Origin: Planctomycetota bacterium
GTDB lineage: Bacteria > Planctomycetota > Planctomycetia > Planctomycetales > Planctomycetaceae
Assembly: GCA_016872645.1 (NCBI GenBank)
Contig: VGZH01000024.1
Span: 1-62,913 of the forward strand
Reading direction: 5' to 3'
DNA length: 62,913 nucleotides
The position numbers were made by a program, and so were the translations under genes. The notes under the pieces were generated by a model, which saw only the letters and a program-made list of their open reading frames with translations, was not told the origin of the DNA and ran no database searches. Below are positions 3 through 50,383 of this stretch, piece after piece; position 1 is the stretch's first letter; the number at the start of each line of letters is the position of its first letter.

Positions 3-2009
3 TATCGAGTCCGGTACAAGGACTCGCCGCGCACGCCGAAAGATTTGGACCTCACGAAAGAGACCGACGAGCAACTCATCGAACGTCTCGGAGCCAACAA
101 CGACTTCATCCGCTGGACGGCCACGCGCCTGTTGCAAGAACGCGCAGCAAAGGAAGTGCGTCCAGGGAAAGATGAAGTCGTGCGACCAAAACTAAGAGCA
201 GTCTTTTCTAAGGACAATCAAGATGCGTCAACAAATCAATTGCGACATGCTTTTTTTGCAATGATCGGATCATACAGCTCCGAATCAAGTAACTTCGATG
301 TCATTCGCGATCTAGGCGTGACCGATTTGCACCCAAAGTTTGACAAGTGCATGAGCGCCTGGTGGGTTCGATACATGCATGGGAACCGAGCTTTTGCGGA
401 ATCCTTCGCTCCATATCGGAATAAGCAGAATCTAGCAGGCACAACGTCAACCGACCCAAGCACTGTGATGCTTCAACAAATCATCGGCTTGTCAAAGCTA
501 CCGATTACTGCGACGGCAAAAATAGACGGATTCCTTTGGCATCTCTCACAGTCCAAAGATGACAAGTTGATTCCTCACATCGTCTGGCAGAACTTACATC
601 CCAATCTTGAGCAACACCCCGATGAATTTCTGAGAGCGCTTCAAGACGGCCAGTATCTCAAATCAAAACCCGTTGCCGACCTCATGCCGCGCGTCGTGGA
701 TCGGATTCTTGGCCGGCAGAAGTTTGATGCGGCTCCTGTCGCAAAACTGTTCGCCTTGTTGCGGGACGATCATCCGCAAGTCGGGCGCGAGGTGTTGGCC
801 GTGCTGGCCGCGAAGGTGCAGTCGGGAGAACTCAAGGGGGACAAGCTGGAGCAACTCAAGGCGGCGATGTCCGAGCCGCTCACGCCGTTGCTCAACAGCG
901 GAGTCAGCCATCCGCTCGGCAGCGACGCCGCACTGCTGGCCGTCTCTTGGGGCGACCAACGCGGTCTGTCGCACGTCCGCCAGTCGTTCACGACTCGGGG
1001 CCTCCAGCCGGACCTGCGATTGAAGGCGCTCAACGCGCTCATTGCAGCGCGTGATGAATCTTTGTTGGAAACGATTACGAAAGTCTTGGATGATCTCACG
1101 CAGAATCGCAAAGACGCAGAGGGACCGCAGCCTCTCCGCCCCTCCGGGCCTCTGCGTGAGAAATCAGCCTTTGCTTCTCAGCTTCTCGCCGCACTCGGAA
1201 AGCTCGACGAACCCAAAGTCGCCGATCTCGTGCTCGCGCGATACCAAAAGCTCGAACCGGAACTCCAGCCGGCGGCCATCGAACTGCTGACTCAGCGCGC
1301 GAACTGGTCAAAATCGCTGCTCTCACAAGTCGGCGAGAAAAAAATCGCGGCCGCGGCGATCAACGTGAATCAAGCGCGACGCATTCAGGCACTCAAGGAC
1401 AAAGATCTGTCGGAACTACTCAATCGCCATTGGGGCCAAGTCCGCGACTCGCGCAGCCCGGATCGGGAACGAGTCGTTGCCGAGATGAAGTCGCTGATCC
1501 GCAGTCAGACGGGCGATCCGTTCGCGGGAGAAAAAGTCTTCAAACGAGTCTGTGCCGCGTGCCACAAAATCTACGGCGAAGGCCCCGACATCGGCCCCGA
1601 CATCACCTCGAACGGCCGCAACGATTTCAACCAGCTTCTCTCCAACGTCTTCGACCCCAGCCTGGTCATCGGAGCCGGCTACCGCGTCTGCACCGTCGTC
1701 AACAAAGCCGGCCGAGTTCAAAGCGGCCTGCTCGTCGAAGACAGCCCGCAACGAGTCGTGTTGAAGCCGGCAGCAATCGCTGCAAAGCCCGCAAACACGA
1801 CGGATGCTCCGGTGGCTGTTGCCGTCGGTCAACTGCAAATCATCCCGCGCGACGACATTGAAGAGTTCAAACTCAACGAACTCTCGCTCATGCCCGAAGG
1901 CTTGGAGAAACAACTCTCGCCACAAGAGATCGTCGATCTGTTCGCGTTTCTGGTGCTCGACAAGCATCCGAAAGACAAGTCGGCGAAGCGTCTGCCGGGT
2001 GTCGACTGA
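3..2009 (+). CDS. PVC-type haem-binding/HEAT-repeat protein, 5'-truncated by the window
   Basis: The reading frame is already open at base 3 with no start, so the N-terminal part (expected to be a beta-propeller dehydrogenase domain) lies outside the window. The visible part has a helical HEAT-like middle and a C-terminal single-haem cytochrome c module with CAACH (about base 1555), followed by the GPDI and later SLMPEGLEKQLSPQEI segments typical of the planctomycete putative haem-binding domain. The same C-terminal layout recurs in the complete gene at 37623-40649, so the two are paralogues. The role is probably periplasmic oxidation of a carbohydrate or alcohol, which is inferred from the family. 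Odd point: a palindromic element is read in frame at about 1096-1170 (NRKDAEGPQPLRPSGPLREK). Confidence is high for the family, low for the substrate. Confidence 0.85.
   Translation, partial: YRVRYKDSPRTPKDLDLTKETDEQLIERLGANNDFIRWTATRLLQERAAKEVRPGKDEVVRPKLRAVFSKDNQDASTNQLRHAFFAMIGSYSSESSNFDVIRDLGVTDLHPKFDKCMSAWWVRYMHGNRAFAESFAPYRNKQNLAGTTSTDPSTVMLQQIIGLSKLPITATAKIDGFLWHLSQSKDDKLIPHIVWQNLHPNLEQHPDEFLRALQDGQYLKSKPVADLMPRVVDRILGRQKFDAAPVAKLFALLRDDHPQVGREVLAVLAAKVQSGELKGDKLEQLKAAMSEPLTPLLNSGVSHPLGSDAALLAVSWGDQRGLSHVRQSFTTRGLQPDLRLKALNALIAARDESLLETITKVLDDLTQNRKDAEGPQPLRPSGPLREKSAFASQLLAALGKLDEPKVADLVLARYQKLEPELQPAAIELLTQRANWSKSLLSQVGEKKIAAAAINVNQARRIQALKDKDLSELLNRHWGQVRDSRSPDRERVVAEMKSLIRSQTGDPFAGEKVFKRVCAACHKIYGEGPDIGPDITSNGRNDFNQLLSNVFDPSLVIGAGYRVCTVVNKAGRVQSGLLVEDSPQRVVLKPAAIAAKPANTTDAPVAVAVGQLQIIPRDDIEEFKLNELSLMPEGLEKQLSPQEIVDLFAFLVLDKHPKDKSAKRLPGVD
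1114..1157. repeat. Palindromic element read in frame inside a CDS
   Basis: Arms ACGCAGAGG (1114-1122) and CCTCTGCGT (1149-1157) are perfect inverted repeats. A second pair, CTCACGCAG near 1095 and CTGCGTGAG near 1153, encloses or overlaps them. The element resembles the intergenic repeat at 2024-2081 and is translated as a Pro/Arg-rich insert. Confidence 0.6.
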
Positions 2010-2023
2010 AGACGGTTCCTCGC

Positions 2024-2081
2024 GCAGAGGCGCAAGGCCCGCAGAGTCATCGTCGGATTCTGTGGGCTTCGCGCCTCTGCG
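2024..2081. repeat. Intergenic imperfect inverted repeat (CGCAGAGGCGC family)
   Basis: The arm beginning CGCAGAGGCGCAAGGCCCGC is matched by an arm ending GGGCTTCGCGCCTCTGCG, with a short unpaired centre. It lies 15 bases after the stop of the first gene and shares its core with the in-gene element at 1114-1157. It could act as a transcript 3' end but lacks a T tract. Confidence 0.6.
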
Positions 2082-2089
2082 TGATCCCT

Positions 2090-2677
2090 TGCCCTTGCAG
2101 CAGAATACGGAACGCTGCACGGACGCCGTTCTTTCCGTCGCAACAAGAATGTCCCGAGTTCAATCAGCGACAACGTGTAAACCTGTACGCCAGAGACGCG
2201 GGCCAAGCTCTGACTGAAGCACTTCGAACTGGCAATCGCGAACGCCCAGTAGGCCAATCGCGAATCAGTAAGCGGCATTGAGGTACGGTGTTCCTGCTGC
2301 AAGACCTCTGCGGCCAGCAGCACGCTCTGCAGGACAAAAATCAAATCGCAGATGCCGACGGATAGGTTCAGGATCGGCAGCCACGTCCGCGTTGCCGCCC
2401 GCAGCCATTGCCGCTGATCGGCGCTTGACGACGGCTAACGCCACCGCGATTTGGACAACGCGACGAACGGAACAATTACAAGAATTCAGAAGACCGCCGT
2501 CACCGCCGGAGACTTTCCGCCGCAGAGCAACAGCAGCGCGTTGTTGAGGTCCATACTTCCATGTCAGGATCCGCAGGCCCCCGCCTGATGTGCTCTCTCG
2601 GAACGAGAGCAACACGTCGAGATACCCAACACTGACTTTCCAGCCGACGAACGCCAGCGACAAGCCAGCCCAGCACA
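2090..2677 (-). pseudogene. Gene-poor stretch, possible decayed membrane-protein gene
   Basis: No intact gene is convincing here. Read on the minus strand, several frames contain hydrophobic, protein-like pieces (for example CWAGLSLAFVGWKVSVGYLD near 2670-2610 and WLPILNLSVGICDLIFVLQS near 2330-2390), but they lie in different frames broken by stops. That pattern fits a degenerated integral-membrane gene. No family was recognised and the call is tentative. Confidence 0.25.
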
Positions 2678-2721
2678 ACGCGTCAGCGAGTGATCGAACC
2701 GTGAATCACTCGCTGACGCGT
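2678..2721. repeat. Perfect 17-bp inverted repeat downstream of queA
   Basis: ACGCGTCAGCGAGTGAT (2678-2694) is followed after 10 bases by its exact reverse complement (2705-2721), and a short TATTTTA tract precedes the queA stop. The core GCGTCAGCGAG is shared with the in-gene element of glnE at 41318. It may serve as the queA transcription terminator on the minus strand. Confidence 0.75.
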
Positions 2722-2730
2722 CACGCTATT

Positions 2731-3852
2731 TTACGGCAGGATCAGCATCGCATCGCCGTAGCTGTAGAAGCGATAACGTTCGCGAATCGCCTCGGCATAG
2801 GCCGCTTGGATGTGGTCGAGACCCGCCATCGCGGAGACCAGCACGAACAACGTCGAGCGAGGCAAATGAAAATTCGTGAGCAGCGCATCGACACAACGAA
2901 ACTGATACGGCGGCCGAATGAAGATCGAAGTCGAACCGCACCACGATTTGAGTTCACCGTCGGCCGACGCCGTTTCGAGCGTCCGCACCGACGTGGTTCC
3001 AACGGCGACAACTCGTCCGCCCCGTTTGCGAGCCGCTTGAATCGTTCGCACGCTGGCTTCGCCGATCTCACACCATTCGGAGTGCATCGCGTGGCCGCCA
3101 AGCGTCGTCGTCGAGATCGGCCGGAATGTTCCCAACCCGACATGCAATGTCACGCGAGCGATGGCGATGCCGCGCGCTTGGATCTTCGCCAGCAGCGATT
3201 CCGTGAGGTGCAATCCCGCCGTCGGAGCGGCGACTGAACCGGGATGACTCGCGTAAGTGGTTTGATACCGCTGCCAGTCGTTGTCGTTCGCGATCTTGCG
3301 GTGCATGTAGGGCGGCAGCGGCATCGTGCCGAATTGCTGGAGCAACTCGACCACCTCACCAGATGGCTCTGGACGCATCAACCAAACGCCGTCCTCCTCA
3401 CGGTCGATGAGTGTCAGATGCAACGACTCCAGCTGACTGTCAGTAGGCTGACCGAGCGGGATCAGCGTCACAGCTTCGCCCGGCTTCAAATATCCGCGGG
3501 TTTGGCCAATCAGCCGCCAGTCACCGTTTTCCGCTTGTCCGAGATACAGCCCCTCCCATTTTCCGCCCGTCTTGGATCGTTGGCCAACAAGCCGGGCCGG
3601 CAGAACTCGTGTGTCGTTGAGCACGAGGCAATCGTCAGGCCGCAACAGGACATCCAAATCTCGAATGCCTCGGTGCTGAATCGCCCCCGAATGTCGGTCG
3701 AGCACCAGCAATCGTGAGGCGTCGCGCTGAGGCAATGGCTCCTTGGCAATCAATTCCTCGGGCAATTGGTAGTCGTACAACGAAACGTCGTCAAAGAGAT
3801 TGGTCTTGTCCGCTGAAGTCGGCGGCAACGGAGAAATGGACTCGCTCGACAT
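2731..3852 (-). CDS. queA: S-adenosylmethionine:tRNA ribosyltransferase-isomerase
   Basis: 373 residues. QueA transfers and isomerises the ribosyl part of SAM onto 7-aminomethyl-7-deazaguanine in tRNA, giving epoxyqueuosine at the wobble position of GUN anticodons. Recognisable segments are YDYQLPEELIAKEPLPQRDA, the LNDTRVLPARL motif, TAGLHLT, HVGLGTFRPI and the C-terminal NFHLPRSTLFVLVSA. Length is slightly above the usual 340-360 because of about 20 extra N-terminal residues, so a start nearer LYDYQLP is possible, but no better start codon with a ribosome binding site was seen. It is transcribed divergently from the glycosyltransferase 66 bases away and ends beside a strong palindrome. Confidence 0.95.
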   Translation of the reverse strand: MSSESISPLPPTSADKTNLFDDVSLYDYQLPEELIAKEPLPQRDASRLLVLDRHSGAIQHRGIRDLDVLLRPDDCLVLNDTRVLPARLVGQRSKTGGKWEGLYLGQAENGDWRLIGQTRGYLKPGEAVTLIPLGQPTDSQLESLHLTLIDREEDGVWLMRPEPSGEVVELLQQFGTMPLPPYMHRKIANDNDWQRYQTTYASHPGSVAAPTAGLHLTESLLAKIQARGIAIARVTLHVGLGTFRPISTTTLGGHAMHSEWCEIGEASVRTIQAARKRGGRVVAVGTTSVRTLETASADGELKSWCGSTSIFIRPPYQFRCVDALLTNFHLPRSTLFVLVSAMAGLDHIQAAYAEAIRERYRFYSYGDAMLILP

Positions 3853-9037: not shown

Positions 9038-11170
9038 ATGAAGATAGAACACCCTCAATCCGGAGCCTCGAACGAGTCGCTCGCTTGGCGAACGCGATTG
9101 CTCGTCGTTGTGATTTGTGCGTTTTGGATTGTTCTTGGTGGCCGGCTCGTACAATTGCAGTGGTTCAGTCGTCAGCGATTTATGGAGCAGGTTGAAGACC
9201 AAAGCACTTCGTGGGAAGAAATCGCTGCTCGCCCCGGAGACATCCTCGACCGCGAAGGTCGAGTGCTGGCGGCGTCGATTGCCGCGAAGAGTTTCTTCGT
9301 CGTTCCGAGCCAGCTGACGCGACAACCGAAGCAATGGGAATTGGTACAAGCAATCGCCGAGGCGGTCGGGCAGGATGCCGATCAACTGCAAGCCAGGATC
9401 GCGACGCATGGGAAAAAGCACTTTCTGTGGGTCAGCCGGCGAATCACCGACGACGACGTGCTCGCCAAACTGTACGCCCTCGAATCACCGAAGAAAGGGC
9501 TGCAACTCTTCGGATTCCGCGATGAATTTTTGCGGCAGTACCCGCAGGGGCATTTCGCCGCGCATGTGCTCGGTGGGCGCGATTTAGATGGCGTCGGACG
9601 GGGTGGCATCGAACAGACGATGAACGCGAAGCTGGCGGGGAAGCCGGGCTATCGACGACTAATGCTCGATTCGCGACTGCGAGTCATCGAAGTTCAAAAC
9701 GATCTCAATCGAACACCGCAGCACGGACAAAGCGTGACGCTGACGCTCGACACGATCATCCAGATGCACGTCGAGGAAGAACTCGACCGCGTGATGGAGA
9801 AGTGGCGAGCCAAGCATGCAGCGGCAATCGTGCTCGATCCAAAGACTGGCGAAGTGTTGGCGATGGCGTCGCGACCGACCTACGATCCGAATGACCTGAC
9901 ACACGTCAGTATTGAAGCTTGGAAGAATCAGGCAATCGCCGCGATTTGGGAACCCGGATCAACTTTCAAGCCGATGATCGTCGGCTGGGGACTCGAACAT
10001 GGCTTCATCCGCGGTGACGAATCGTTTCATTGCGAAAATGGCCTGTACCGCATGGGCCGCCGCGAACTGCACGATCATCACAAGTACGGCGTGCTCAGCC
10101 TGACTGACGTGCTGGTGAAGTCGAGCAACATCGGCATGGCGAAGATCGGGCAAAAACTTGGCAACGGGGAGTTGTTTCAGGCGGCGGTCACGTTCGGGTT
10201 CGGGCGCCGCACCGGTATCGAGCTGCCCGGCGAGCTCTCCGGAATGTTGGCACCGCTGAAGAAGTGGACGTCGTACTCGACTGGTTCGATTCCGATGGGC
10301 CAAGAGATCGCGGTGACGCCGATTCAACTGCTGGCCGCTCATGGAGCGCTCGCGAACGGCGGCACGCTCATCAGTCCGCACTTGGTTCGAGGCGGTCGCA
10401 CCCAGCCGCTGGGTCGCCCATGGGCCGAGAAGCCCGATCGTGGCGAACGAACGGCCGACGCCAATTCGTTGCTGCAGCAGATCGCGTTTCAAACCGGAGC
10501 CGCTTCTCGGCGAGTGCGAGGCTTTGCGAGTCCCGGAGTCTCGGAGAGCAACGAAGAAGAACAATCGCCAGCTCTGCCACAAAGAGATCCAGAGGTTGGT
10601 CAACCCCGTTCGCTGAATATCGTGGCTCCCGACGACCGCGAGCTGTTGGATGATCGATTCGATCTTACGGATGATGGTCGAAGCGAGAATAGATCGTCAC
10701 TTGAGCTGCAATTGGAACCTCTTCTGGAAGAGCCAACGTTCGGTGAAGACGCTGACAGCTTGCTGTCGTCTCCAGTGGTATCGGCCACGATCAGTGAGGA
10801 TGTCTGCCGCTGGCTCCGCGAATCCGTGATGACCGAGGTCATCAAACGAGGGACGGGCAAGAAGGCACGGCTTGACGACTACACGGTCTTTGGCAAGACG
10901 GGCACGGCCCAGAAACGTGATCCGCAGACGGGCAAGTATTCCAATCAACTGCACGTCAGTTCTTTCGTTGGCGGTGCGCCGGCGGCGAATCCGCGAGTTC
11001 TGGTGCTGGTGATGGTCGACGAGCCAGCGAGTGGTGGCGAACACTTTGGCGGTGATATTGCGGCTCCTCCCGCTCGCGAGATCATTCACAAGGCGCTGCG
11101 ACAACTCGGCGTCGTACCAGAACAGAAACCGCAAAAGACAGCTGATGCCGGTTTCCGTTCTCCTCGGTAA
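9038..11170 (+). CDS. ftsI: Class B penicillin-binding protein (FtsI/PBP3-like)
   Basis: 710 residues. Cross-links peptidoglycan in the periplasm. One N-terminal membrane helix (LLVVVICAFWIVLGGRLV), a PBP-dimer domain (RPGDILDREGRVLA), then the transpeptidase with SxxK as STFK near residue 307, SxN in SSNIGM near 362 and KTG in FGKTGTAQK near 618. All three catalytic motifs are intact. Unusual: about 100 extra low-complexity residues sit between the LISPHLV segment and VVSATISEDV, making the protein longer than typical FtsI (570-620); part of this insert coincides with a palindrome (10465-10555). No PASTA domains. Last gene of the dcw remnant; no murE-ftsZ genes follow. Confidence 0.93.
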   Translation: MKIEHPQSGASNESLAWRTRLLVVVICAFWIVLGGRLVQLQWFSRQRFMEQVEDQSTSWEEIAARPGDILDREGRVLAASIAAKSFFVVPSQLTRQPKQWELVQAIAEAVGQDADQLQARIATHGKKHFLWVSRRITDDDVLAKLYALESPKKGLQLFGFRDEFLRQYPQGHFAAHVLGGRDLDGVGRGGIEQTMNAKLAGKPGYRRLMLDSRLRVIEVQNDLNRTPQHGQSVTLTLDTIIQMHVEEELDRVMEKWRAKHAAAIVLDPKTGEVLAMASRPTYDPNDLTHVSIEAWKNQAIAAIWEPGSTFKPMIVGWGLEHGFIRGDESFHCENGLYRMGRRELHDHHKYGVLSLTDVLVKSSNIGMAKIGQKLGNGELFQAAVTFGFGRRTGIELPGELSGMLAPLKKWTSYSTGSIPMGQEIAVTPIQLLAAHGALANGGTLISPHLVRGGRTQPLGRPWAEKPDRGERTADANSLLQQIAFQTGAASRRVRGFASPGVSESNEEEQSPALPQRDPEVGQPRSLNIVAPDDRELLDDRFDLTDDGRSENRSSLELQLEPLLEEPTFGEDADSLLSSPVVSATISEDVCRWLRESVMTEVIKRGTGKKARLDDYTVFGKTGTAQKRDPQTGKYSNQLHVSSFVGGAPAANPRVLVLVMVDEPASGGEHFGGDIAAPPAREIIHKALRQLGVVPEQKPQKTADAGFRSPR
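10465..10555. repeat. Inverted repeat within the ftsI insertion
   Basis: TTCGTTGCT (10465-10473) is exactly complementary to AGCAACGAA (10547-10555). Between them, read in reverse, is a CTCCGGGACTCG...GCCGAGAAGCGG sequence that resembles the stretch before moxR (13712-13763), so it looks like one copy of a dispersed element. Confidence 0.45.
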
Positions 11171-13582: not shown

Positions 13583-13682
13583 GGCGTTTCCTTACGGTCA
13601 ACACGAGGGGCAGGGCACTCAGTACTCTCTCTCCCGGCTGCCTTTTACAATCCATCTCCGACCCCGACCACCTCAATCCGAG

Positions 13683-13722
13683 TCGCGGAGCGATTCGGCG
13701 ACGTCGCTGAGTCGCTCCGCGA
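13683..13722. repeat. Palindrome upstream of moxR
   Basis: TCGCGGAGCGA (13683-13693) and its exact reverse complement TCGCTCCGCGA (13712-13722) are separated by 18 bases. It lies in the gap between two divergent genes, and the open frame of moxR runs through it. Confidence 0.6.
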
Positions 13723-13747
13723 TTCCGATTCCGAAAGCGAGTTTGCC

Positions 13748-14761
<1,014 letters not shown>

Positions 14762-32036: not shown

Positions 32037-32064
32037 GCATTCCTGAATTGAATGGGAAAAAAAG

Positions 32065-32094
32065 AAAACGGCCACACGCATGTGTGGCCGTTTT
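32065..32094. terminator. Bidirectional intrinsic terminator
   Basis: AAAACGGCCACAC (32065-32077), loop GCAT, GTGTGGCCGTTTT (32082-32094): a perfect 13-bp stem with A and T flanks, between convergent genes. Confidence 0.9.
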
Positions 32095-32129
32095 CGTCTC
32101 AAGCAATTCAGTAGTCGAAGAATCGTAGG

Positions 32130-37622: not shown

Positions 37623-40600
37623 ATGCGAAGTTGGTTTATTGCATGTTGGCCGCTGTTCATCGTTGTTGCGTCGTTCGCAGCAGAACCTCAAACCCCCCAA
37701 GGCCCGCTCTCGCCCGAAGAGTCGCTGAAGCATTTGGTGCTCGGCGACCAGAACTTGTTCATCGAGATCGTCGCGGCCGAGCCGGAAGTCATCGACCCGG
37801 TGGCGATTCAATTCGACGAGCATGGCCGGATGTGGGTCGTCGAGATGCGCGACTATCCGACCGGGCCTCAACACGCTCCGCCGCCGCTGGGTGGGCCGGA
37901 TGCGAAACCGTTGTCGCGGATCAAGCTGCTGGAAGACAAAGACGGCGATGGACGCTACGAGACGGCTCACGTCTTCGCCGACAACTTGCTGTTCGCGACC
38001 GGCGTGCAGCCGTGGGATGGCGGAGTCATCGTCACTCATTCGGGCGAGATCGTGTATCTCAAGGACACCGATGGCGATCACAAGGCCGACGTCCGCGAAG
38101 TCTGGTTCACCGGCTTCTCGGAAACGAACACGCAGCTTCGAGCCAATCATCCGACGTTCGGCCCCGATGGTTGGATTTACGTCGCCAACGGCCTGCGCGG
38201 CGGAAACGTGATCGCGGTGAAGAAGGATTGGCCAAGTAGGTTGGGCACTCCTGCCCGACCGTCCGAATCGAAGGAAGAAAAAGACAAAGGGTCGGGCAAG
38301 AGTGCCCAAGCTACGGGCATCTCACACGATCCCGCGAACCCCGTCCCCGTCAGTCTCACCGGGCGCGACTTCAAGTTCGATCCGCTGACCGGGCGCTACG
38401 AGGCGATCTCCGGCAACGGGCAGTACGGGATGACGTTCGATGCGTGGGGGAATCGGTTCGTGTGCGACAACCGGCATCCGTGTCGGCATGTGATCTTCGA
38501 GGAGGATTTCATTCGGCGTTGTCCGCACGTCGCGTTTCCGGCGGTGGTCAATGACGTGATTCCGCCGGACGACAAGAACAAAGTCTTCCCGCTGACCTCG
38601 GCGTGGACGACGAGCAACCTGCACGCGGGGACGTTCACCGCCTCGTGCGGCGTGACGGTCTATACCGGCGACTGGCTCCCCGAAGAATTTCGCGGCAACG
38701 TCTTCGTTTGCGAACCAACCGGCAACCTCGTCCAGCGAGCCGTCCTCGAACCCGACGGCGTGACGTTCAAGTCGCGGAATCCGCATGAAAAAGATCGGCG
38801 CGAATTCCTGGCGTCGCGAGACGACTGGTTCCGGCCGGTCGATTTGCAGAACGGGCCGGACGGAGCGTTGTACGTCGTGGACATGTACCGCGCCGTGATC
38901 GAGCACCCCGAATGGGTTCCCGACGAATTGAAAAACCGCCCCGACCAATGGCTCGGCAATGATAAGGGACGCATCTATCGCATCAGGCCGAAGAGCGAGC
39001 GACGCCGCTTTGATCCGAAGTTACTTGGTGATTTGCGAAACCAGAATCGTTGGACCGTGATGACGGCCTTGCGATTGCGCCGGCACGATGTGAACTCTCC
39101 ACATCGGACGATGAGCGATCTTAGTATTTCCGAGATCGCGTATGGCTCACCACAGATGGGTGACATTCAGTGGGCGCTCTCCAGACTTCATAACTTGCCA
39201 TACGACGACGTTCGTGATCGTTCAAAATGGTTGCCGTGGGATATGCCTGATGCGAAACCTCAAGTTCGCCTCGCAGCGTTTCATGCTGCCAAGGCGATGT
39301 CCCCTGAGTTTCGGGTTGAATCATTGCGCAGCTTCGCGCGAGTCGCCGTCCTTGATGCCAAAGACCCTTGGATTCGACAAGCGTGCATCGCGGTTGCAGA
39401 GAGCGAGTCGGCATTGGTGCTGAACGAAATCTTGAGGCGATCGCACGACTCCGATGATTGGAACTGCGAGGGACTCCGCGAATTGATCGAAGGATTCTGC
39501 GCACAAGTGTCCGTTCGCGACATCGACCGAGATTTGAATTCGTCACTTCTCCAACTCTGTCAGGCTGCGAGTTCGTCCCAATTAAAGGACGGCGGAAATC
39601 GCAAAAGTGAAGTCGGGTTATCCGGGCTGCTGACATTCGCGCAAAGCTTGTCGCGTCGTGGAAAATCAATTCAATCCACTCGCGCTGCTCTGGATGAGAA
39701 GACGAAATCTCGACTCAACGAGGTCAGCGATTTGTGTGGCGCACGCATCCGAGCCGTGGAAACAACGGCAGAACTTCGCAAGTTGGCGATCCAATGGTTG
39801 CGGTACGTGGATTTCGACGGCCCTTCGGGTCACGGCAGCGAACTCTTGAAGCTCGCCGAAACACTCTCTGACCAATCGTTGCGACTCACGTCCATCGATT
39901 CATTGGCCTCGTTCCAACGTCCCGAGGTGACAAACTGGCTGCTCGACCGCTATCTCGCTGAAACTCCTGCGATTCGTCGCGCGATCCTCTCGGCGTTGAT
40001 GGCTCCGAAGGAGCGGCAGTTGGCGTTGTTGGGGGCGATTGCGGAGGGAAAGATCGCGGCGACCGAGATTGATCCGGTGCGGGCGAAGCAGTTGATGGAA
40101 GCGAAGGAAGAAGCGGTGCGCGAGAAGGCTCGGCAGGTGTTGGCCGCGGCGGTTCCGGCCAGTCGCAAGGAGGTGCTCGAAGCGTATCAGCCGGCCCTGA
40201 CGCTCAAGGCCGACCCGCAGCGCGGCCGCGAGGTGTTTCAGAAAAATTGCGTGACATGTCATCGCGTCGGAGACCTCGGCGTCAACGTCGCGCCGGACAT
40301 CTCCGACACTCGCACCAAAAAGCCGGAGCAACTCCTGCTGGACATCCTCGACCCCAACCGAGCCATCGACGCCAACTACTTCGCGTATACCGTCGTCACC
40401 AAAGATGGTCGCAGCGAATCGGGAGTCATCGCGTCCGAGTCGTCGAACTCGATCACGCTCAAGCAACCTGAAGGCAAAGTGTTGACGATCTTGCGGGGTG
40501 ATATCGACGAACTCCGCAACACCGGCCTCTCGCTGATGCCTGTCGGCATCGAGAAAAACATCAATCAACAACAGATGGCCGACCTGATCTTTTGGCTGAA

Positions 40601-40649
40601 AAACTGGCGCTACCTCGACGGTAAAGTCCCGGCGACCAGCCTGAAGTAA
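37623..40649 (+). CDS. PVC-type membrane-bound dehydrogenase with C-terminal cytochrome c
   Basis: 1008 residues with a Sec signal (SWFIACWPLFIVVASFAA) and GGAG eight bases before the ATG. An N-terminal beta-propeller (FDEHGRMWVVEMRDYPTGP, FGPDGWIYVANGLRGGNV, GPDGALYVVDMYR) is followed by HEAT-like helices and a haem module with CVTCH, then DPNRAIDANYFAYTVVTKDG and LSLMPVGIEKNI. Fits the planctomycete putative membrane-bound dehydrogenase plus haem-binding family; probably periplasmic sugar or alcohol oxidation. Full-length paralogue of the truncated gene at the left edge. Contains an in-frame palindrome (38236-38314) encoding a Ser/Lys/Glu-rich insert. Confidence 0.9.
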   Translation: MRSWFIACWPLFIVVASFAAEPQTPQGPLSPEESLKHLVLGDQNLFIEIVAAEPEVIDPVAIQFDEHGRMWVVEMRDYPTGPQHAPPPLGGPDAKPLSRIKLLEDKDGDGRYETAHVFADNLLFATGVQPWDGGVIVTHSGEIVYLKDTDGDHKADVREVWFTGFSETNTQLRANHPTFGPDGWIYVANGLRGGNVIAVKKDWPSRLGTPARPSESKEEKDKGSGKSAQATGISHDPANPVPVSLTGRDFKFDPLTGRYEAISGNGQYGMTFDAWGNRFVCDNRHPCRHVIFEEDFIRRCPHVAFPAVVNDVIPPDDKNKVFPLTSAWTTSNLHAGTFTASCGVTVYTGDWLPEEFRGNVFVCEPTGNLVQRAVLEPDGVTFKSRNPHEKDRREFLASRDDWFRPVDLQNGPDGALYVVDMYRAVIEHPEWVPDELKNRPDQWLGNDKGRIYRIRPKSERRRFDPKLLGDLRNQNRWTVMTALRLRRHDVNSPHRTMSDLSISEIAYGSPQMGDIQWALSRLHNLPYDDVRDRSKWLPWDMPDAKPQVRLAAFHAAKAMSPEFRVESLRSFARVAVLDAKDPWIRQACIAVAESESALVLNEILRRSHDSDDWNCEGLRELIEGFCAQVSVRDIDRDLNSSLLQLCQAASSSQLKDGGNRKSEVGLSGLLTFAQSLSRRGKSIQSTRAALDEKTKSRLNEVSDLCGARIRAVETTAELRKLAIQWLRYVDFDGPSGHGSELLKLAETLSDQSLRLTSIDSLASFQRPEVTNWLLDRYLAETPAIRRAILSALMAPKERQLALLGAIAEGKIAATEIDPVRAKQLMEAKEEAVREKARQVLAAAVPASRKEVLEAYQPALTLKADPQRGREVFQKNCVTCHRVGDLGVNVAPDISDTRTKKPEQLLLDILDPNRAIDANYFAYTVVTKDGRSESGVIASESSNSITLKQPEGKVLTILRGDIDELRNTGLSLMPVGIEKNINQQQMADLIFWLKNWRYLDGKVPATSLK
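38236..38314. repeat. Palindromic element inserted in frame in the dehydrogenase gene
   Basis: The arms (38236-38260 and 38290-38314) are 25 bases, complementary at 23, around a 29-base centre. The core TTGGGCACTCCTGCCCGACC also recurs in shortened form at 44403 (GGGCACTCTTGCCCG). It interrupts a conserved propeller segment between KKDWP and the VSLTGRDF strand. Confidence 0.75.
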
Positions 40650-40658: not shown

Positions 40659-40779
40659 TTGGAGTGCGGGGTGTCAGCCCCGCGTTGAAGTGTTCCGCGC
40701 GTCCAACGATCAGCCGCACCTATTTCTGAGGAAGTGACTCCATGCCGATCCAAAGCGGTGCTGACACACCGTACTCCAA
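40659..40779. repeat. Inverted repeat overlapping the glnE start
   Basis: Left arm 40659-40683 and right arm 40755-40779, 25 bases each, 22 complementary. Core CTGACACACCGTACTCC. The same element brackets the gap at 48445-48536. Here the right arm is coding sequence, giving the first residues of GlnE. Confidence 0.75.
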
Positions 40780-43700
40780 AGCTCTGACGTTTGATGATCG
40801 CTTGCGGCAGTTGTTTGATGAAGCCGAAGACGACGAGGCGCTGAGTTGTCTATCGTGGGTGTCGGCATTGCTGGCGGAGTCTCCGTCGGCGGACGCTTCT
40901 CTCGTGGGATTGGAACGCTTGGTGCGAGCGGTGCCGGATCGCCGCGAGTTGTTTTGGCAACTGCTGCATTCGCCGCGAGCCATCGAAGTGTTGCTCACGA
41001 TCTTTGCGGCCAGTCCGTATCTGACGGATCTCCTGCTGTGTGAGCCGGCGTTGCTGTCACAGTTGACGCAACCGCAGTTGCTTCGTGACTTGCGCAGCCG
41101 GCCGGAATTCTTTGACACGGCGATGCTGGCGGTGAACTCGGCGACCACCGCAAATGAACGAGCGATCGCGTTGCGAGATTTCCAGCACGGAGAGTTGCTG
41201 CGAATTGGCGTGTGCGATTTCTTGGGTCTGTTCGATCTGCGTTCGGTAACAAATCAATTGTCATTGCTCGCTGATGCGACCGTGCAAGCGGCGCTGCAGA
41301 TGATCGACCAGCTGACTCGAAGCGTCAGCGAGGGGGAGCGATCGTCAGGCAACGATCGCAATTGGTCCTCGCGAACGCTTCGGGTTACATCAGCAGCCGA
41401 GCCTGTTGGCTTCGCTGTGCTTGCGCTCGGAAAACTTGGCGGCGAGGAGTTGAACTACAGCTCGGACATCGACCTCGTCTTCGTGTGCGAAGGGGATCCT
41501 GCTCGGTTTCAGGAATTGGCGCAGCGACTTTCGAAGGTGCTGTCGGATGTGACCTCGCACGGCATTTTGTACCGCGTTGACTTGCGGCTGCGACCTTGGG
41601 GGAACGCGGGTCCGTTGGTTGTGTCCGTCGAGACGTATCTCGACTACCTGCGAATCCAAGCACAGTTGTGGGAGCGGCAGGCGCTGTTGAAAGCTCGCGT
41701 GATCGCGGGTGACTTCGCGGTCGGCCAGCGATTTCTGGAACAGGCGCTGCCGTTGATTTTCAATGCGTCAGCAGAAGATGTCAGACGCAGCGTCTGGCAG
41801 GCGAAGCAGCGGATTGAGCAAGACCTGAAGCGTAAGGGGAAAGCGGCTGGCGAAGTGAAGCTCGGTGCCGGCACCATTCGAGATATCGAGTTCGTCGTCC
41901 AATGTCTGCAACTGCAACACGGCTGCGACATGTCGAGCATACGAAGCATTAACACGCTCGACGGACTTGTGCGACTGGCCGAGAGCGGTTTTGTGCGTGC
42001 GGACGAGTACCGCGAACTGACGTCGGCGTACCTGTTGTTCCGCGTCATCGAGCACAGCCTGCAACTCAAGCACAGCCGTCAAACACACTCGCTGCCGAAC
42101 GACCCCGCCGAGTTGGAATTGCTTGCGCGGCGACTCGACTTCGCATCGGCTGAGCAACTGGAAGCCCATTTTCAACAGCATCGATCGGCAGTGCGGCGTA
42201 TCTTTGAAAAGTACGTCGGTGGCGGGAGCGATTCGCGACTGGTGAATGCCGAGTCGTCGCCAGGAGGTACTGCATCGTCGATTGCTGGTTTCGAGGCCGA
42301 GCATCGCTTGCAATCGCGACTCTGGAGTCGACTATCGGGCGACAATCCGCTCATCGTTGACTGGAGGCCGACGTCGGCAAATCTCGGGACAGTGACGATC
42401 GCTGGTTTCGATCAGTTAGGCGACCTGTCGATGATGTGCGGCCTGCTGTTCGTGAGTGGATTCGACATTGTGGAGGGTGACGTCTTCACGGAAGAACGAT
42501 CCGTTGATTCGAGCCACCCATTGCGATTCGTGAATTCGTTTGTGGTTCGACAGCGCGCCGTCCTTCCGCAGGCGAGCGGAGGAGGTCAATCCCCTGAGGT
42601 ATCCGAGGGGACGCCTCCCCTGCTCGGAGGGTTTGCACCCTCGGCTCGCCTGGACGTTGATTTGCAGCGCGAACTGCTCGATCTGCTCAATCAAGCACGG
42701 ACGGTAGGTCGCCGCGAAGCGCAAGCGAGGCTTGCGAAACGAGTCTCGGAGGCATTGTCGACCGCTCGGCCCGCTGGCCCTGTCCCTTCGCCGGTCGAGA
42801 TTGAATTCGATAACCACTCACACCCGGAGATGACGCTGATTCGCATCGCATCGGACGACACCAGCGGTTTTCTGTACGAGCTGACCAACTCGCTGACGCT
42901 GCTGGGGATCGACATTCGGCAAATGTCGATTCATACGGACAGCTCGCGCGTGCGCGACACATTGCTGGTCACGGATGACTCCGGTCGCAAGTTGCTCGAC
43001 GAGAAGCGTCAGCAAGTGCTTCGCACGGCGGTAGTGCTCATTCAGCACTTCACCGATTTACTGCCACAGTCCCCCGATCCCGAGGCCGCGCTGCTGCATT
43101 TCCAAGAACTGCTCGAGCGGGAATTGCTCGAACCGGACTGGCTGACGCGACTCACGTCACTGCAGCGGCCGGAGGTCTTGGGGGCGCTCGCGAAACTTCT
43201 GGGCGTGAGCGATCTCTTCTGGGAGGATTTTCTCCGCTTGCAGCACGCGAGCCTGTTCCCCGTCGTGACCGACATCGTGGGATTGCGAATGCAAAAGTCA
43301 CGCGACTCGTTGACGGCGGAACTCGTGACCGAACTGGCTTCTACCTCGACTTTTTCCGAAAGCTGCGACCGACTGAATGCCTTCAAAGATCGCGAGATGT
43401 TCCGGATCGACATGCGACACGTGACGGGCATCGTTCCGGACTTCATCGATTTCTCTCACGAGCTGACCGACCTTGCCGAGACCGTTATCGTGGCCGCCTG
43501 CGACTTGGCCGAGCGTGAAGTCATCGCTCGACGGGGGCGTGTCCAACGCGCATGCGATCCGACGTATTGCGTCGCCGCGCTTGGCAAGCTCGGTGGACGT
43601 GAATTGGGATTCGCCTCGGACATCGAACTGCTTTTCGTCTTCGATGGTCCCGCGCCGTCGGAATTCTGCGAGCGGCTGGTCGAGACATTTCAGCAGACGA

Positions 43701-44392
43701 TCGTCGCCAAACGAGCTGGCATCTTTCAAATTGATTTGCGGCTGCGGCCTCACGGGCGAGCGGGTAACTTGGCCGTATCGCTCGACGAGTTCACGCGGTA
43801 CTTCGACACCGACGGCCCGGCCTGGCCCTTCGAGCGACAATCACTGATCAAACTGCGTCCCATCGCCGGCAACGCAGCATTCGGCGAGACCGTGCTCCGC
43901 CGGCGCGACGAATTGTTGTTTGGTTCTGTCCGCTGGGAAGTCGCTCCGGTTCGAGCCATGCGCGAACGTCAAGTGCGACAGCACGTCCAAGCCGGCACAT
44001 TCCACGCGAAGCTCAGCCCCGGTGCGTTGGTCGATATCGAATACCTCGTGCAGCTGCTGCAACTGACGCTCGGCCAGCGGCACCCCTCGCTGCTGATCCC
44101 CAGCACGCTCGATGCGCTGGCAGAACTGTCGCGCGAGAAACTGATTCCGAGCAACGCTGCCGAACCGCTGCGCGAAGCATATCTGTTCTTTCGCCGGTTG
44201 ATTGATGCCTTGCGTATGGCTCGCGGCACGGCGGACGACCTGACGTTGCCGCCGGCCGGCTCCGAAGAGCTGACCGGCCTCGCGCGGCGGCTCCATCTCA
44301 CCGCGCAGGAACTGCTCCAACTCGCCGAAAAACACGCCGCCCACGTCCGCGCCTGGGGCTGGTCCCTCGGCTGGGCGATCTCGCCGGCGTGA
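40742..44392 (+). CDS. glnE: Bifunctional glutamine synthetase adenylyltransferase/deadenylylase with internal ACT-like domain
   Basis: 1216 residues against about 950 in E. coli. GlnE adds and removes AMP on glutamine synthetase in response to PII and glutamine. The first nucleotidyltransferase domain has GKLGGEELNYSSDIDLVF near residue 229, the second GKLGGRELGFASDIELLF near 945, where the second Asp of the D-x-D pair is Glu. Between them, about residues 693-770, is an ACT-like module (SGFLYELTNSLTLLGIDI, RDTLLVTDDSGRKL) of the GlnD type, not usual in GlnE. Two palindromic inserts (41318, 42569) add Ser/Gly-rich segments. GAGGAAG lies before the ATG. glnA is not in the window. Confidence 0.92.
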   Translation: MPIQSGADTPYSKALTFDDRLRQLFDEAEDDEALSCLSWVSALLAESPSADASLVGLERLVRAVPDRRELFWQLLHSPRAIEVLLTIFAASPYLTDLLLCEPALLSQLTQPQLLRDLRSRPEFFDTAMLAVNSATTANERAIALRDFQHGELLRIGVCDFLGLFDLRSVTNQLSLLADATVQAALQMIDQLTRSVSEGERSSGNDRNWSSRTLRVTSAAEPVGFAVLALGKLGGEELNYSSDIDLVFVCEGDPARFQELAQRLSKVLSDVTSHGILYRVDLRLRPWGNAGPLVVSVETYLDYLRIQAQLWERQALLKARVIAGDFAVGQRFLEQALPLIFNASAEDVRRSVWQAKQRIEQDLKRKGKAAGEVKLGAGTIRDIEFVVQCLQLQHGCDMSSIRSINTLDGLVRLAESGFVRADEYRELTSAYLLFRVIEHSLQLKHSRQTHSLPNDPAELELLARRLDFASAEQLEAHFQQHRSAVRRIFEKYVGGGSDSRLVNAESSPGGTASSIAGFEAEHRLQSRLWSRLSGDNPLIVDWRPTSANLGTVTIAGFDQLGDLSMMCGLLFVSGFDIVEGDVFTEERSVDSSHPLRFVNSFVVRQRAVLPQASGGGQSPEVSEGTPPLLGGFAPSARLDVDLQRELLDLLNQARTVGRREAQARLAKRVSEALSTARPAGPVPSPVEIEFDNHSHPEMTLIRIASDDTSGFLYELTNSLTLLGIDIRQMSIHTDSSRVRDTLLVTDDSGRKLLDEKRQQVLRTAVVLIQHFTDLLPQSPDPEAALLHFQELLERELLEPDWLTRLTSLQRPEVLGALAKLLGVSDLFWEDFLRLQHASLFPVVTDIVGLRMQKSRDSLTAELVTELASTSTFSESCDRLNAFKDREMFRIDMRHVTGIVPDFIDFSHELTDLAETVIVAACDLAEREVIARRGRVQRACDPTYCVAALGKLGGRELGFASDIELLFVFDGPAPSEFCERLVETFQQTIVAKRAGIFQIDLRLRPHGRAGNLAVSLDEFTRYFDTDGPAWPFERQSLIKLRPIAGNAAFGETVLRRRDELLFGSVRWEVAPVRAMRERQVRQHVQAGTFHAKLSPGALVDIEYLVQLLQLTLGQRHPSLLIPSTLDALAELSREKLIPSNAAEPLREAYLFFRRLIDALRMARGTADDLTLPPAGSEELTGLARRLHLTAQELLQLAEKHAAHVRAWGWSLGWAISPA
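41318..41382. repeat. Palindromic element in frame in glnE, copy 1
   Basis: CGAAGCGTCAGCGAGG faces CCTCGCGAACGCTTCG (14 of 16 complementary), with an inner perfect stem GCGATCGT/ACGATCGC (41338-41345, 41352-41359). Encodes RSVSEGERSSGNDRNW. Core shared with the repeat after queA. Confidence 0.7.
42569..42652. repeat. Palindromic element in frame in glnE, copy 2
   Basis: CAGGCGAGC (42569-42577) and GCTCGCCTG (42644-42652) are exact complements, with inner CCCCT/AGGGG pairing. The same CAGGCGAGCGG start occurs at 50315. Encodes a Gly/Pro-rich insert (SGGGQSPEVSEGTPPLLGG). Confidence 0.65.
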
Positions 44393-47053: not shown

Positions 47054-48442
47054 TTACCCGCCAAACTGCAACTTCAATATCGCCGCCTTCGCCTCGTGCA
47101 TCGCCAACCGGTCGGTCTCGATCGTCTTCGACGAACTGATAAAAACCGGGGCCTCGCGAGATTCCAAACCCGGGGTTGGCAATCGCCCATGACTGCCGAG
47201 CACGATCGAAGCGTCAAGTCCGATCACATCCATGTAATACCGTAAGCCGAGCCGCTTCTGCATCAGGCGTCTCGCGATTCGCAGCTTGGGAATGCGCAAC
47301 TTCGGATCCAGAAACAGCTCGACCGGGTCGTAGCCCGGCTTGCGATGGATGTCGACCGTCCGCGCGTAATCGGGAGCCAGTGCGTCGTCGAGCCAGAAGT
47401 AATAGGTGAACCACGCTCCCGGCGCGGCGATCGCGACCAGTTCTCCGGAGCGTTCATGGTCGATGCCGAACTCAGCTTGAGCGGCGCGATCCAGGACACG
47501 TTCGATTCCCAGCGTCCTCCGCAGCAACTCGGCAACCGGCGCGACATCTTCCGCACGACGAACATAGACGTGAGCGACTTGATGATCGGCAACCGCGAAC
47601 GCGCGAGAGGCTCCGGGGTCGAGAGTCTCCCAGCCAACCTTCTCGCGACGCACGATGAGATACCCGTGCTCTCGCAACACGCGATTGATGTGAACCGATC
47701 GGCTGACGGCGGTGATCGCGTACTCGGACAAGACGACGACGTCTGATTCGCGAGACAGCGCCGCGTCGATGATCTTGCCCGCTTCGGCATCAACGGCGCG
47801 AATATCCTCTGCAATGCGAGGATCATCCGGACCGAGCCGTTGCAAGTTGTAGTCCAGGTGCGGCAGGTAGGCCAAAGTCAGCGACGGATTTTGATCCCGC
47901 ATGACCCGGACGGTCGCGTCGGCGATCCAGCGAGTGCTGGTGATGTCCGCTGCCGGTCCCCAGAACTTAAACAGCGGGAAGACGCCGAGCTGTTCTTGGA
48001 GCCGATCTTTCAACTCAGCCGGCTGGCTGTACGAGTCCATCACCTTGCGCCCGTCAGCGGGATAACTCGGGCGAGGCGTTACCGACCAATTCACGTCGGC
48101 GTACATATTGAACCACCAGAACAGTTTCGCGACCGAATAACTCGGATCGCGCTTTCGTGCTGCGTCGTACAACCGCTCGCCGCGCACAAGCTGATTCGAC
48201 TGCCGCCAGAACAGCACTTCGGAAAGGTCTCGCCAATACCAACCATTTGCCACAATCCCGTGCTCGCGCGGCAGCGTTCCGGTGAGCAACGTTGCCTGAG
48301 CAGAACAGGTCACGGCTGGCAGCACAGTCCCCATCGGGATCGCGAATCCATCCGCCGCGACCCGCGAGATGTTCGGCGTGTTCGGCCCGAGCATCTCGTG
48401 CGTGAGACCAACCACATTGATGATGACAAGCGGACGCGGCAT
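47054..48442 (-). CDS. Alkaline-phosphatase-superfamily phosphodiesterase/nucleotide pyrophosphatase
   Basis: 462 residues from ATG 48442; the open frame continues through a palindrome and was cut there. The start [18 protein letters not shown] and the nucleophile region [20 protein letters not shown] (Thr nucleophile) are typical of the NPP branch. Metal-ligand candidates include Asp and His in PHLDYNLQ, Ser/Glu in [16 protein letters not shown], and the closing GSHGR. No signal peptide. The substrate is unknown; a phosphodiester or nucleotide sugar is possible. Confidence 0.85.
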
Positions 48443-48444
48443 TT

Positions 48445-48536
48445 TTGGGGAGTGCGGTGTGTCAGCACCGATTTGGATTTGTCGTGAGTGAGTCGGACAT
48501 TCAAAGAACACGGCGCTGACACACCGTACTCCCCAA
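48445..48536. repeat. Intergenic inverted repeat (CTGACACACCG family)
   Basis: Arms 48445-48470 and 48511-48536, 26 bases with 24 complementary, fill the gap between two minus-strand genes. Same family as the repeat at the glnE start. Confidence 0.8.
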
Positions 48537-49403
48537 TTAGAACAAGGTCGTTGGCCCTTGCGAAACAACGCCGTCGTCCGGCAAGGGATCGTTGATGACA
48601 AACCACGGACTCGGTTCCTGTTGCTCGGCGGCAAAGACGCTCGCCTGCGAACCGAAGTGAGCCAAGGCGGTGCGAGCCGTCGTGGCGGCAAGATCCGCCG
48701 AGTTGCACTCGCGGCTGATGTGCAGCAAGACCAACTGCCGCAGCCGATCCGTGCCCGATTGCTTAAGAACTTCGCCAATCAACTCGCAGGCTTGTGCATT
48801 CGAGAGATGTCCCTCATCACCGAGAATGCGGTTGACGAGCCACGGCGGCCGACGGCTTTGCCTTAGCGAGTCGGGATCGTGATTGAACTCCAGCGCCAGC
48901 AATTCGACGTCGATCAAACGCTCCAAGAGGCCGCGATCCCAGCAGCCCAGGTCCGCGGCGTAGGCGAAGGCCGAAGAATTCGACTCAAAGCGAAATCCAA
49001 AAGTCGCACCCCCATCGTGCCGGACTCGAAACGGGCGGCATTTCCAGTGCTCCGAGATCGCGATCGACCGCTCACCGACGAATGCGCGGAACAATCGGCT
49101 CCGTTCGAGATCTGCGAAGTCGGGGCAACCGATCCGGAACGCGGCTGCGTGATCACGATGACAGAACACCGGCACACGCGACGTCCAGCAACGGCTCAAC
49201 GATTTCGGAGTCCAATGATCGCTGTGCCGATGTGTCATCAACACGCCTCGAATCTGCGACCAATCGGCGTCAACGATTGCCAGCCGCGCATCGAGTTCCT
49301 TTGGCTCCAATCCGAGGTCGATCAGCCAGCGTTCGCCGTCGCAATCGATCAGCGCCGAGTTTCCTGCGCTGCCGCTGGCCAAGATCGAGAGTCGTGCTGG
49401 CAT
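48537..49403 (-). CDS. Metallo-beta-lactamase-fold hydrolase (YycJ/WalJ-like)
   Basis: 288 residues from ATG 49403 (AGGA upstream). ILASGSAGNSALIDCDGERW at the start and the metal motif THRHSDHW (HxHxDH) fit the YycJ branch, followed by AYAADLGCWD and LEFNHDPD. Conserved C-terminal ILGDEGHLSNAQACELI and LLHISRECN are also of this type. Probably a two-metal exonuclease or phosphodiesterase in the cytoplasm; the substrate is not known. Confidence 0.88.
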   Translation of the reverse strand: MPARLSILASGSAGNSALIDCDGERWLIDLGLEPKELDARLAIVDADWSQIRGVLMTHRHSDHWTPKSLSRCWTSRVPVFCHRDHAAAFRIGCPDFADLERSRLFRAFVGERSIAISEHWKCRPFRVRHDGGATFGFRFESNSSAFAYAADLGCWDRGLLERLIDVELLALEFNHDPDSLRQSRRPPWLVNRILGDEGHLSNAQACELIGEVLKQSGTDRLRQLVLLHISRECNSADLAATTARTALAHFGSQASVFAAEQQEPSPWFVINDPLPDDGVVSQGPTTLF

Positions 49404-49495
49404 TGACGGGAGTTCCTGGAGCTCGACCCCTCGTGGGCCGGTCGATTTTCCATACCCATGAAACCATCCAGGCCACAAGGGCCTGGGCGACAGAG

Positions 49496-50269
49496 TCATC
49501 GCGCTGTCCAACCACCATCAACCGTGACCAGGCTGCCAGTCATGTAACTCGAGGCATCGCTGGCCAGGAAGATTGCGGCTCCTTGAATTTCTTCCATGCG
49601 GCCCCAGCGCTGGAAGGCGACCGCTCCGACAACGTTTTTCTTGGCGTCTTCGGTTTCGGCGATCGGGACGTTCATCGGCGTCAGAAACGGTCCGGGGCAG
49701 ATCGCGTTGACGGTGATGTTCCACGCGGCAAGTTCCAAGCCGAGCGTCTTCGTCATCTGCACAACCGCCCCTTTGCTGGCGGCATACGGCGAACGAAGCG
49801 CGAGACCGACGAGTCCGATCGTGCTGGCGATGTTCACGATCTTGCCGTATTTTCGCGACTTCATATGCGGCACGACGGCTCGCGCGCCGAGCCATACACC
49901 GTCGGTGTTGATGCTGTTGACCTTTCGGAACTGTTCAAGCGTCAGTTCTTCGATGGGGCCGCGAATGTTGATTCCCGCGTTGTTGACGAGAATGTCAATC
50001 TGTCCGAACTCGACGAGTGCCCGATCGACCATCGCCTTCGCAGACTCCTCGGACGACGCATCCGCCGCGATGGCGACGGCCTTGCGGCCGTAGTCGCGTT
50101 GGATTTGCACTGCGACAGCGTGTGCCTCGTCGATGTTGCGGCTCGTCAACAACAAGTTCGCGCCAGCCGACGCCAGGCCCTCGGCCATGGCTTGGCCCAA
50201 GCCTTTGGAACCGCCCGTCACGATCGCGGTCTTTCCGGTTAAATCGAATTGTTTGATGCCTGGAAGCAT
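49496..50269 (-). CDS. Short-chain dehydrogenase/reductase (1)
   Basis: 257 residues from ATG 50269. Classical SDR: cofactor motif TGGSKGLGQA, NNAG in LVNNAGINI, active Ser in NIASTIGLVG, YAASKGA as YxxxK, and the GPFLTPMN loop. The pattern resembles gluconate 5-dehydrogenase and 2-deoxy-gluconate dehydrogenase, so sugar acid metabolism is plausible. Next to a second SDR in the same orientation, separated by a palindrome. Confidence 0.9.
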   Translation of the reverse strand: MLPGIKQFDLTGKTAIVTGGSKGLGQAMAEGLASAGANLLLTSRNIDEAHAVAVQIQRDYGRKAVAIAADASSEESAKAMVDRALVEFGQIDILVNNAGINIRGPIEELTLEQFRKVNSINTDGVWLGARAVVPHMKSRKYGKIVNIASTIGLVGLALRSPYAASKGAVVQMTKTLGLELAAWNITVNAICPGPFLTPMNVPIAETEDAKKNVVGAVAFQRWGRMEEIQGAAIFLASDASSYMTGSLVTVDGGWTAR

Positions 50270-50314
50270 GAGGCGCCTTTCATGTTCGAGTGAGCCCAGT
50301 TTCATAAACACCGG

Positions 50315-50383
50315 CAGGCGAGCGGCTCCGCGTCAGTCCTGCGGGGGTGTGACTCGGAGGACTGACGCGATGCCGCTCGCCTG
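50315..50383. repeat. Intergenic inverted repeat between the SDR genes
   Basis: Arms 50315-50340 and 50358-50383, 26 bases with 24 complementary, around 17 bases. The outer CAGGCGAGCGG matches the element in glnE at 42569. Confidence 0.8.

Follow-up and report, generated by a model that had tools for sequence, protein, structure and literature searches.

Repetitive extragenic palindromic (REP) sequences are not confined to the space between genes. According to Di Nocera et al. (2013; PMC3733652), GTAG/CGTC REPs and their dimers can lie wholly within open reading frames (ORFs), where they encode 20-30 residues. Opitutus terrae and Rickettsia conorii are described there as having the most of these intragenic REPs; one gene carries two insertions, and two Xanthomonas species have different REPs at about one recB site. 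The same paper reports GTAG families in Planctomycetes (R. baltica is among the species with several) and makes the argument that the insertions fall in tolerant loops. Their effect is called hard to assess and constraint is argued against, with the speculation that REPs in DNA-repair genes changed activity. Here we describe elements of this type in a 62,913-nucleotide stretch of a Planctomycetota genome (contig VGZH01000024.1, or C24, of assembly GCA_016872645.1; this whole stretch is called the window) and in the genes that correspond to its host genes in relatives.

For the REP doublets forming hairpins (REPINs) and REP-associated tyrosine transposases (RAYTs) of Bertels and Rainey (2011; PMC3116915), the unit is two inverted REPs, as it is here. 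Their Pseudomonas analysis is framed on extragenic space, whereas here a sizeable share of the elements is in genes. A related transposase group, TIRYT or TnpA subclass 2.1, is characterised in PMC6006769 by a Bac_DnaA_C domain and GGGG-type flanking repeats. Finally, the in-frame palindromic protein inserts of Rickettsia (Rickettsia palindromic elements, RPE; described in PMC3733652) can be likened to the present elements by description. The first-pass annotation of the window had drawn this parallel. It holds for the outcome, but the elements are REPINs of RAYT/TIRYT transposases and belong to many families, not to one planctomycete family. We know of no mover common to RPE and these elements.

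Compared with PMC3733652, the present case is alike in having in-frame REPs and dimers inside ORFs. It differs in the many families present in one genus, in its density (16 in-gene palindromes over 200 kb of a single relative) and in the addresses (insertion sites), which in each of the six host genes followed are shared by different families. Among the literature matches listed, with subscription papers outside the scope, nothing on in-frame REPINs in planctomycetes goes beyond that paper. In-frame REPs and one same-site case are already known from it, and the in-gene density and the fixed addresses with changing occupants appear to be new. If the pattern is genome-wide, the genus would constitute a natural insertion scan, tested repeatedly, of loops that tolerate foreign peptides (in MurG, GlnE, HrpA and others). 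It would also make testable how REPINs spread, whether they replace each other and how often mobile DNA turns into protein.

Elements read in frame in the window

The window belongs to an assembly of 5.76 Mb in 213 contigs (the source genome), and the relatives include 11 genomes of the same genus (G001 to G011) and two of other genera in the same family (G012 and G018). Strict inverted-repeat scans used +1/-2 scoring and a score of at least 14. The source-genome sample covers 849,148 bp, window included, in 40 stretches, six of which (C20, C25, C36, C64, C110 and C144) were picked for having hits; genes called with a home-made codon-bias caller cover 87% of it. At this threshold the window contains eight repeats and the sample 78, against none in the Markov-1 shuffle of either. 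Of these 78, 53 are intergenic, 14 run across a gene end and 11 sit entirely inside a called gene, so that extragenic positions are strongly preferred and a minority of elements is in frame.

In the window, 25 inverted repeats come out of a tool scan, eight of which fit the first-pass description. That description counted at least 11 long palindromes, and the inverted repeats are real (these eight, together with 40659-40779 and a weak one at 41318-41382), but the one attributed to ftsI was not confirmed. Five palindromes are found within a conserved ORF or across an ORF start. The one at 38236-38314 has the complete REPIN shape: GTAGGTTGGGCACTCCTGCCCGACC, a spacer and an inverse copy, read in frame as residues 205-230 of a 1008-residue DUF7133 and cytochrome c protein (gene at 37623-40649, + strand). 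Its arms match six further places in the source genome. The next gene, glnE (40742-44392, + strand, 1216 residues), has in-frame elements at two sites. Site 1 (41318-41382) is a weak REP pair (CGAAGCGTCAGCGAGGG...) with a score of 10, retained on two grounds: the match of its arms to a recurrent family (37 matches against 8, 8 and 9 in three shuffles) and the differences among relatives there. Site 2 (42569-42652) is the REP pair CAGGCGAGCGG...CTCGCCTG, which encodes residues 610-637. An ACT-like domain (PF24931) occupies residues 687-762 in the middle of GlnE. Between the two genes, a REP pair of the TTGGAGTGCGGTGTGTCAGCACCGC type (40659-40779) overlaps the first glnE codons with its 3' arm. 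The fifth, an imperfect palindrome at 1094-1161, supplies residues ~350-373 of a cytochrome-c/HEAT gene (ORF 45-2009, + strand); its arm recurs only twice, against 0, 0 and 0, which makes family membership weak.

The insertions first placed in a haem gene, in a dehydrogenase at 37.6 kb (the DUF7133 gene) and twice in glnE are present, only that in ftsI not being confirmed, and all four keep the reading frame, as had been proposed. What had been seen as an added 'low-complexity loop' is the spacer separating the two REPs.

Arm recurrence was counted with 16-mers allowing two mismatches, in the source-genome sample and in three shuffles of it. This was judged too permissive by our own arithmetic, and exact 14-mers were put in its place. 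Four of the five cores named on first pass recur above the shuffles: the CTGACACACCGTACTCC type (40 against 0, 0, 0), TTGGGCACTC...GCCCGACC (15 against 0, 0, 0), the GCGTCAGCGAGG type (31 against 6, 8, 5 and 37 against 8, 8, 9) and, with only 6 against 1, 2, 2, CAGGCGAGCGG. The fifth, CGCAGAGGC, does not. With exact 14-mers, in-gene palindromes recur in 13/16 cases in G003 (random places: 248/1300) and in 8/11 in G007 (146/1060). The 78 repeats of the source genome include further families, among them TTGGAGTGCGGTGTGTCAGCACCGC, (AA)CCCGACGCGTCAGCGAGGG and several GTAG-headed short hairpins (GTAGGTTGGGCACTC..., GTAGGTCAGCC..., CGTAGGGTCGGC...).

The elements are built as REP doublets, two inverse REPs on either side of a short spacer, and they occur in many copies, those at 2020 and 13675 of the window excepted. 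An unpaired GTAG-like head on the hairpin was seen by reading at 38236-38314 and in the flanks of four loci (L030, L117, L252 and L254), while the heads of the CAGGCGAGCGG, GCGTCAGCGAGG and TTGGAGTGCGG types differ from GTAG.

Shared addresses with changing occupants

Alignment of the host proteins with insert-less homologues revealed presence or absence at several sites. Together with the cognate transposases in relatives described below, this supports the original proposal of mobile palindromic elements entering ORFs in frame. Family labels were assigned by eye throughout.

For glnE, 18 relatives were aligned. Site 1 is occupied by the CGTCAGCGAGG type in the source genome, G011 and G002, by GGGGTCGGGAGT in G007 and G010 and by the GGCGAGCGG type in G005; five genomes are empty and the G003 sequence does not reach it. 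At the level of individual sequences, the insert is absent from L085-L087, and L082, L083 and L089 carry other families. At site 2 the source genome has CAGGCGAGCGG, of which G004 retains a remnant. The genus shows four other families there by reading: GTAGGGTGGGTCGAG in G007, G002 and G009, GTGGGGCAGG or GTGGGGCACG in G006 and G003, GGGGTCGGGAGTC in G010 and another in G005 and G011, with none clear in G001 and G008. Seven glnE sequences from other genera have no comparable insert by eye, although the site 2 loop is longer in one of them (L099). One glnE hit of G005 (L110, on C341) has the same coordinates as that of G007 (L083, on C112) and a nearly equal score, and G005 has a second glnE on C473; the duplicate is likely due to cross-binning of metagenome-assembled genomes.

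In MurG, four families by reading occupy the loop that precedes TLLILGGSQGA over the source genome and 10 of the 11 relatives, G008 being empty. In a MurG model (8 sequences, mean predicted local distance difference test (pLDDT) score 66), the insert residues 181-210 have a pLDDT of 29-38, equally low only in the first ten residues, and aligning MurG with the solved 3s2u chain leaves the longest gap at the insert; this hints, weakly, at a floppy loop. A similar pattern is found in HrpA, a DUF116/polyprenyl synthase protein, DUF7133 and the cytochrome-c gene, with some relatives empty or carrying direct repeats. At the cytochrome-c site, GTGAGCGGCACGGCGCTAGCC inserts occur at an equal place in G007 and G005, and there is none in G001 and G008, two genomes in which inserts are missing at several sites. 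Some loops in HrpA (L299, L304 and L037) and in the cytochrome-c protein (L338, L341 and L345) contain runs of GTGGTCCGTGG or direct repeats resembling AAATCTCAAATC; these simple-repeat families use REPIN addresses.

We counted occupancy at six sites in five host genes, an occupant being an inverted repeat with a score of at least 12 and lower scores being taken as empty (for example, MurG in L224, L228 and L229, and glnE site 2 in L082). Rows set aside were DUF7133 L054 (on a contig shared with L080 of G008), L062 (another genus) and L064 (a fragment), HrpA L303 (whose frame stops short of the site), glnE site 1 of G003 (contig end) and the entire cytochrome-c site. Among the hits there was no match for HrpA of G002, the synthase of G011 or the DUF7133 N-part of G006. 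Occupants were found at 38 of the 61 relative-sites (per site 5/10, 7/11, 7/11, 6/9, 5/10 and 8/10). As background, the genes of G003 and G007 contain 33 such repeats over 328,197 bp; by our own estimate, that rate would place one or two at the sites. Away from the six sites the same orthologues contain 33 more in 136,113 bp, including second and third glnE sites and other HrpA loops. By reading, 30 of the 38 occupants belong to a family other than that of the source genome, although four of these 30, at the DUF7133 site, are near relatives of it. Because the six sites were selected for being occupied in the source genome, shared descent accounts for part of the occupancy, but not for the differing families.

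On a five-protein tree the family label changes 6 times for murG, 5 and 8 times for glnE sites 1 and 2, and 6 times each for hrpA and the synthase. These values are close to those of shuffled labels (P for as few or fewer changes 0.43, 0.41, 0.62, 1.0 and 0.15, respectively). The labels therefore do not appear to follow the species tree, at low power (10-12 tips, eye-set labels and the DUF7133 site excluded).

Density within genes was compared as well. The relatives were sampled as 20 stretches, ten G003 contig starts and ten from G007; five of the latter came from contigs listed with REP matches, so that the G007 density is possibly overestimated. The in-gene share of repeats is 11/78 in the source genome (849 kb), 16/65 in G003 (200 kb) and 11/53 in G007 (168 kb, biased choice), and 0/15 and 1/22 in G012 and G018 of other genera (200 kb each; Fisher P = 0.003 for G003 and G007 against G012 and G018). 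Scanned gene by gene, the source genome gives 12 repeats and G003 with G007 give 27, against 0 and 1 in codon-permuted genes. Counts of Y1 transposases (1, 13 and 16 in the source genome, G003 and G007) are in keeping with a dose effect, on three points only.

Transposases and the probable refilling of loops

Y1 transposase matches number 0-16 per genome, with at least one in 11 of 12 genomes (E <= 0.001); the strongest are probably plain IS200-like. The single match in the source genome (on C144) is flanked on both sides by GTAGGGTCGGCTCCCGCCGAC and its partner, and GTAGGGTCGGC is the only REP seen beside a RAYT in that assembly. A first motif scan gave a RAYT ORF in 8 of 30 loci. In a flank scan of 23 loci, five lacked the ORF by motif, three had the ORF without a flanking repeat and 15 had repeats on both sides, some of these being longer duplicated stretches and not REPs. 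All seven proteins exceed the cut-off of PF01797. The C144 protein and that of L254 also exceed that of NF047646 (REP-associated tyrosine transposase), which is the best match, below cut-off, for the other five of the seven.

At two RAYT genes, the flanking REP is also the one that a coding sequence of that genome carries as an insert. In G007, the REP beside the RAYT (L254) is identical over 31/31 nucleotides (nt) to the glnE insert (L083); in G003, the REP beside the RAYT (L252) is identical over 25/25 nt to the DUF7133-gene insert (L061), as well as to the DUF7133-gene inserts of three more genomes. Of nine RAYT-side repeats compared, three have no in-gene match of at least 14 nt and four have one or two short ones (14-16 nt). 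A query made of the 3' REP and 3' flank of the L083 insert matched 68 places in G007, 75 in G002, 60 in G006 and 58 in G005 (with at most 40 candidates scored in each), and only six in the source genome, six in G011 and one in G001. In L117 (1900-3000) a complete RAYT, with REP pairs of its own, separates the DUF7133 gene from glnE; at this position the window carries a REP pair from a different family. A locus of G002 (L244, 1113-2285) resembles TIRYT, as described in PMC6006769, in joining Y1 to a DnaA C-terminal domain and in its long flanking repeats (GGGGTCGGGTCTACG, of the GGGGTCGGG type). Here, in addition, 16 nt of the repeat match the insert that G010 carries in frame in its DUF7133 gene, and similar repeats are seen in glnE by eye. 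The GGGGTCGGG type would belong with the related TIRYT group.

We propose that the palindromes are mainly REPINs, inverse REP hairpins round a spacer, which would be non-autonomous and moved single-stranded by cognate RAYT-type Y1 transposases. Many families would be active, now or formerly, in the genus, with most copies settling intergenically. Copies in coding sequences would survive only if their length keeps the frame, no stop arises and the 20-30 residues fall in a tolerant loop, where they would be neutral. Since tolerant loops are few, heavy traffic would refill the same loops with different families in different species, by independent insertion, while old copies decay or get lost. 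The presence of REPIN/RAYT elements in frame is well supported and the repeated filling of few tolerant loops is likely; we consider this reading, taken as a whole, probable.

Several observations weigh against it. No transposition event was observed, and the family labels are those set by eye. Although both carry several families, Y1 matches (E <= 0.001) number one in the source genome and zero in G011, and at the same threshold transposases for most families of the source genome were not found in it. Its in-gene palindromes recur as exact 14-mers in 5/11 cases, no better than random gene places (655/1560); some are plain hairpins, and not all 11 are REP-like by look. Some occupants in relatives, such as the AAATCTCAAATC direct repeats and GTGGTCCGTGG runs, are not REPs.

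The main rival is replacement in place. A first element might mark the address, to be displaced by later families through transposase insertion in or beside the old REP or through conversion across shared outer bases; we regard this as possible but less probable. By reading, two related families in DUF7133 have a common outer GTAGGTTGGG...CCCAACCTAC and insertion point with a different inner stem, a third, GTGG-headed family ends at the identical 3' junction, and the GTGG- and GTAG-headed families of the synthase have both outer junctions in common. The Fitch changes, close to those of shuffled labels, also fit. In murG, however, the junctions of other families are offset by several bases, unrelated stems give no homology for conversion, and there are few labels, all of them assigned by eye. 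A stronger form, about which we are doubtful, makes the occupied loop a standing 'REPIN slot', a cassette site into which the transposase swaps the REP family active in the lineage, renewing the 20-30-residue peptide.

Orthologous sites would also be hit repeatedly if related transposases inserted at one short motif. Short targets are a feature of Y1 transposases in the IS200/IS605 group, and GTRG-headed elements have identical outer junctions, by reading, at two sites. Unlike families (the GGGGTCGGG, CCCTCTCCC and CGTCAGCGAGG types) nevertheless occupy common loops, and target preference seems unlikely as the explanation. Selected domestication, in which peptides or RNA hairpins are retained as helpful to the host protein or mRNA, would suit sites occupied in many species, but different families and frames yield different peptides, and some relatives lack them, which makes it very improbable. 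Ordinary hypervariable linkers with palindromes from chance or local slippage are hardly credible: linkers do vary and some hold direct repeats, but codon permutation removes nearly all the repeats, the arms match genome-wide REPs and RAYT flanks, and the RAYT-REP identity contradicts this origin for the elements showing it.

Other palindromes of the window

Three intergenic elements of the window belong to recurrent families. A REP pair of the GCGTCAGCGAG type (2678-2721; arm 31 against 6, 8, 5) adjoins the Queuosine_synth ORF (2731-3852, - strand), a REPIN of the TTGGAGTGCGGTGTGTCAGCACCGC type (48445-48536; arm 40 against 0, 0, 0) ends beside the stop of ORF 48537-49511 (- strand), and a REPIN of the CAGGCGAGCGG type is found at 50315-50383 (core 6 against 1, 2, 2). 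While most cores thus exceed the shuffles, two palindromes taken on first pass for members of repeated families do not in the source-genome sample: the CGCAGAGGC-type palindrome at 2020-2084, directly 3' of ORF 45-2009 (arm 2 against 4, 6, 3), and a gapless imperfect palindrome at 13675-13730, upstream of a MoxR-type ATPase gene with its start called at 13748 (4 against 6, 3, 7). The latter is classed as doubtful because it does not recur.

The ftsI gene (9182-11170) had been assigned a palindrome of a repeated family. In the gene of the source genome, a scan at a score of at least 9 gives only 10424-10511 and 11119-11161, both with a score of 10, and membership of a repeated family is not supported, although no search for family matches of these two was made. 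The predicted DNA fold of 10470-10620 is poorer than those of its shuffles (z +1.39), and alignment of the protein round 10424-10511 with nine relatives gives no insert peculiar to the source genome. The ftsI of G006 (L354) has an inverted repeat with a score of 22 at another place in the gene.

Hairpins with A/T flanks occur at 54056-54092, just after tRNA-Gln (53981-54051), and at 32064-32095, after ORF 29880-32036. By their look, these were read as ordinary intrinsic terminators and not as REPs.

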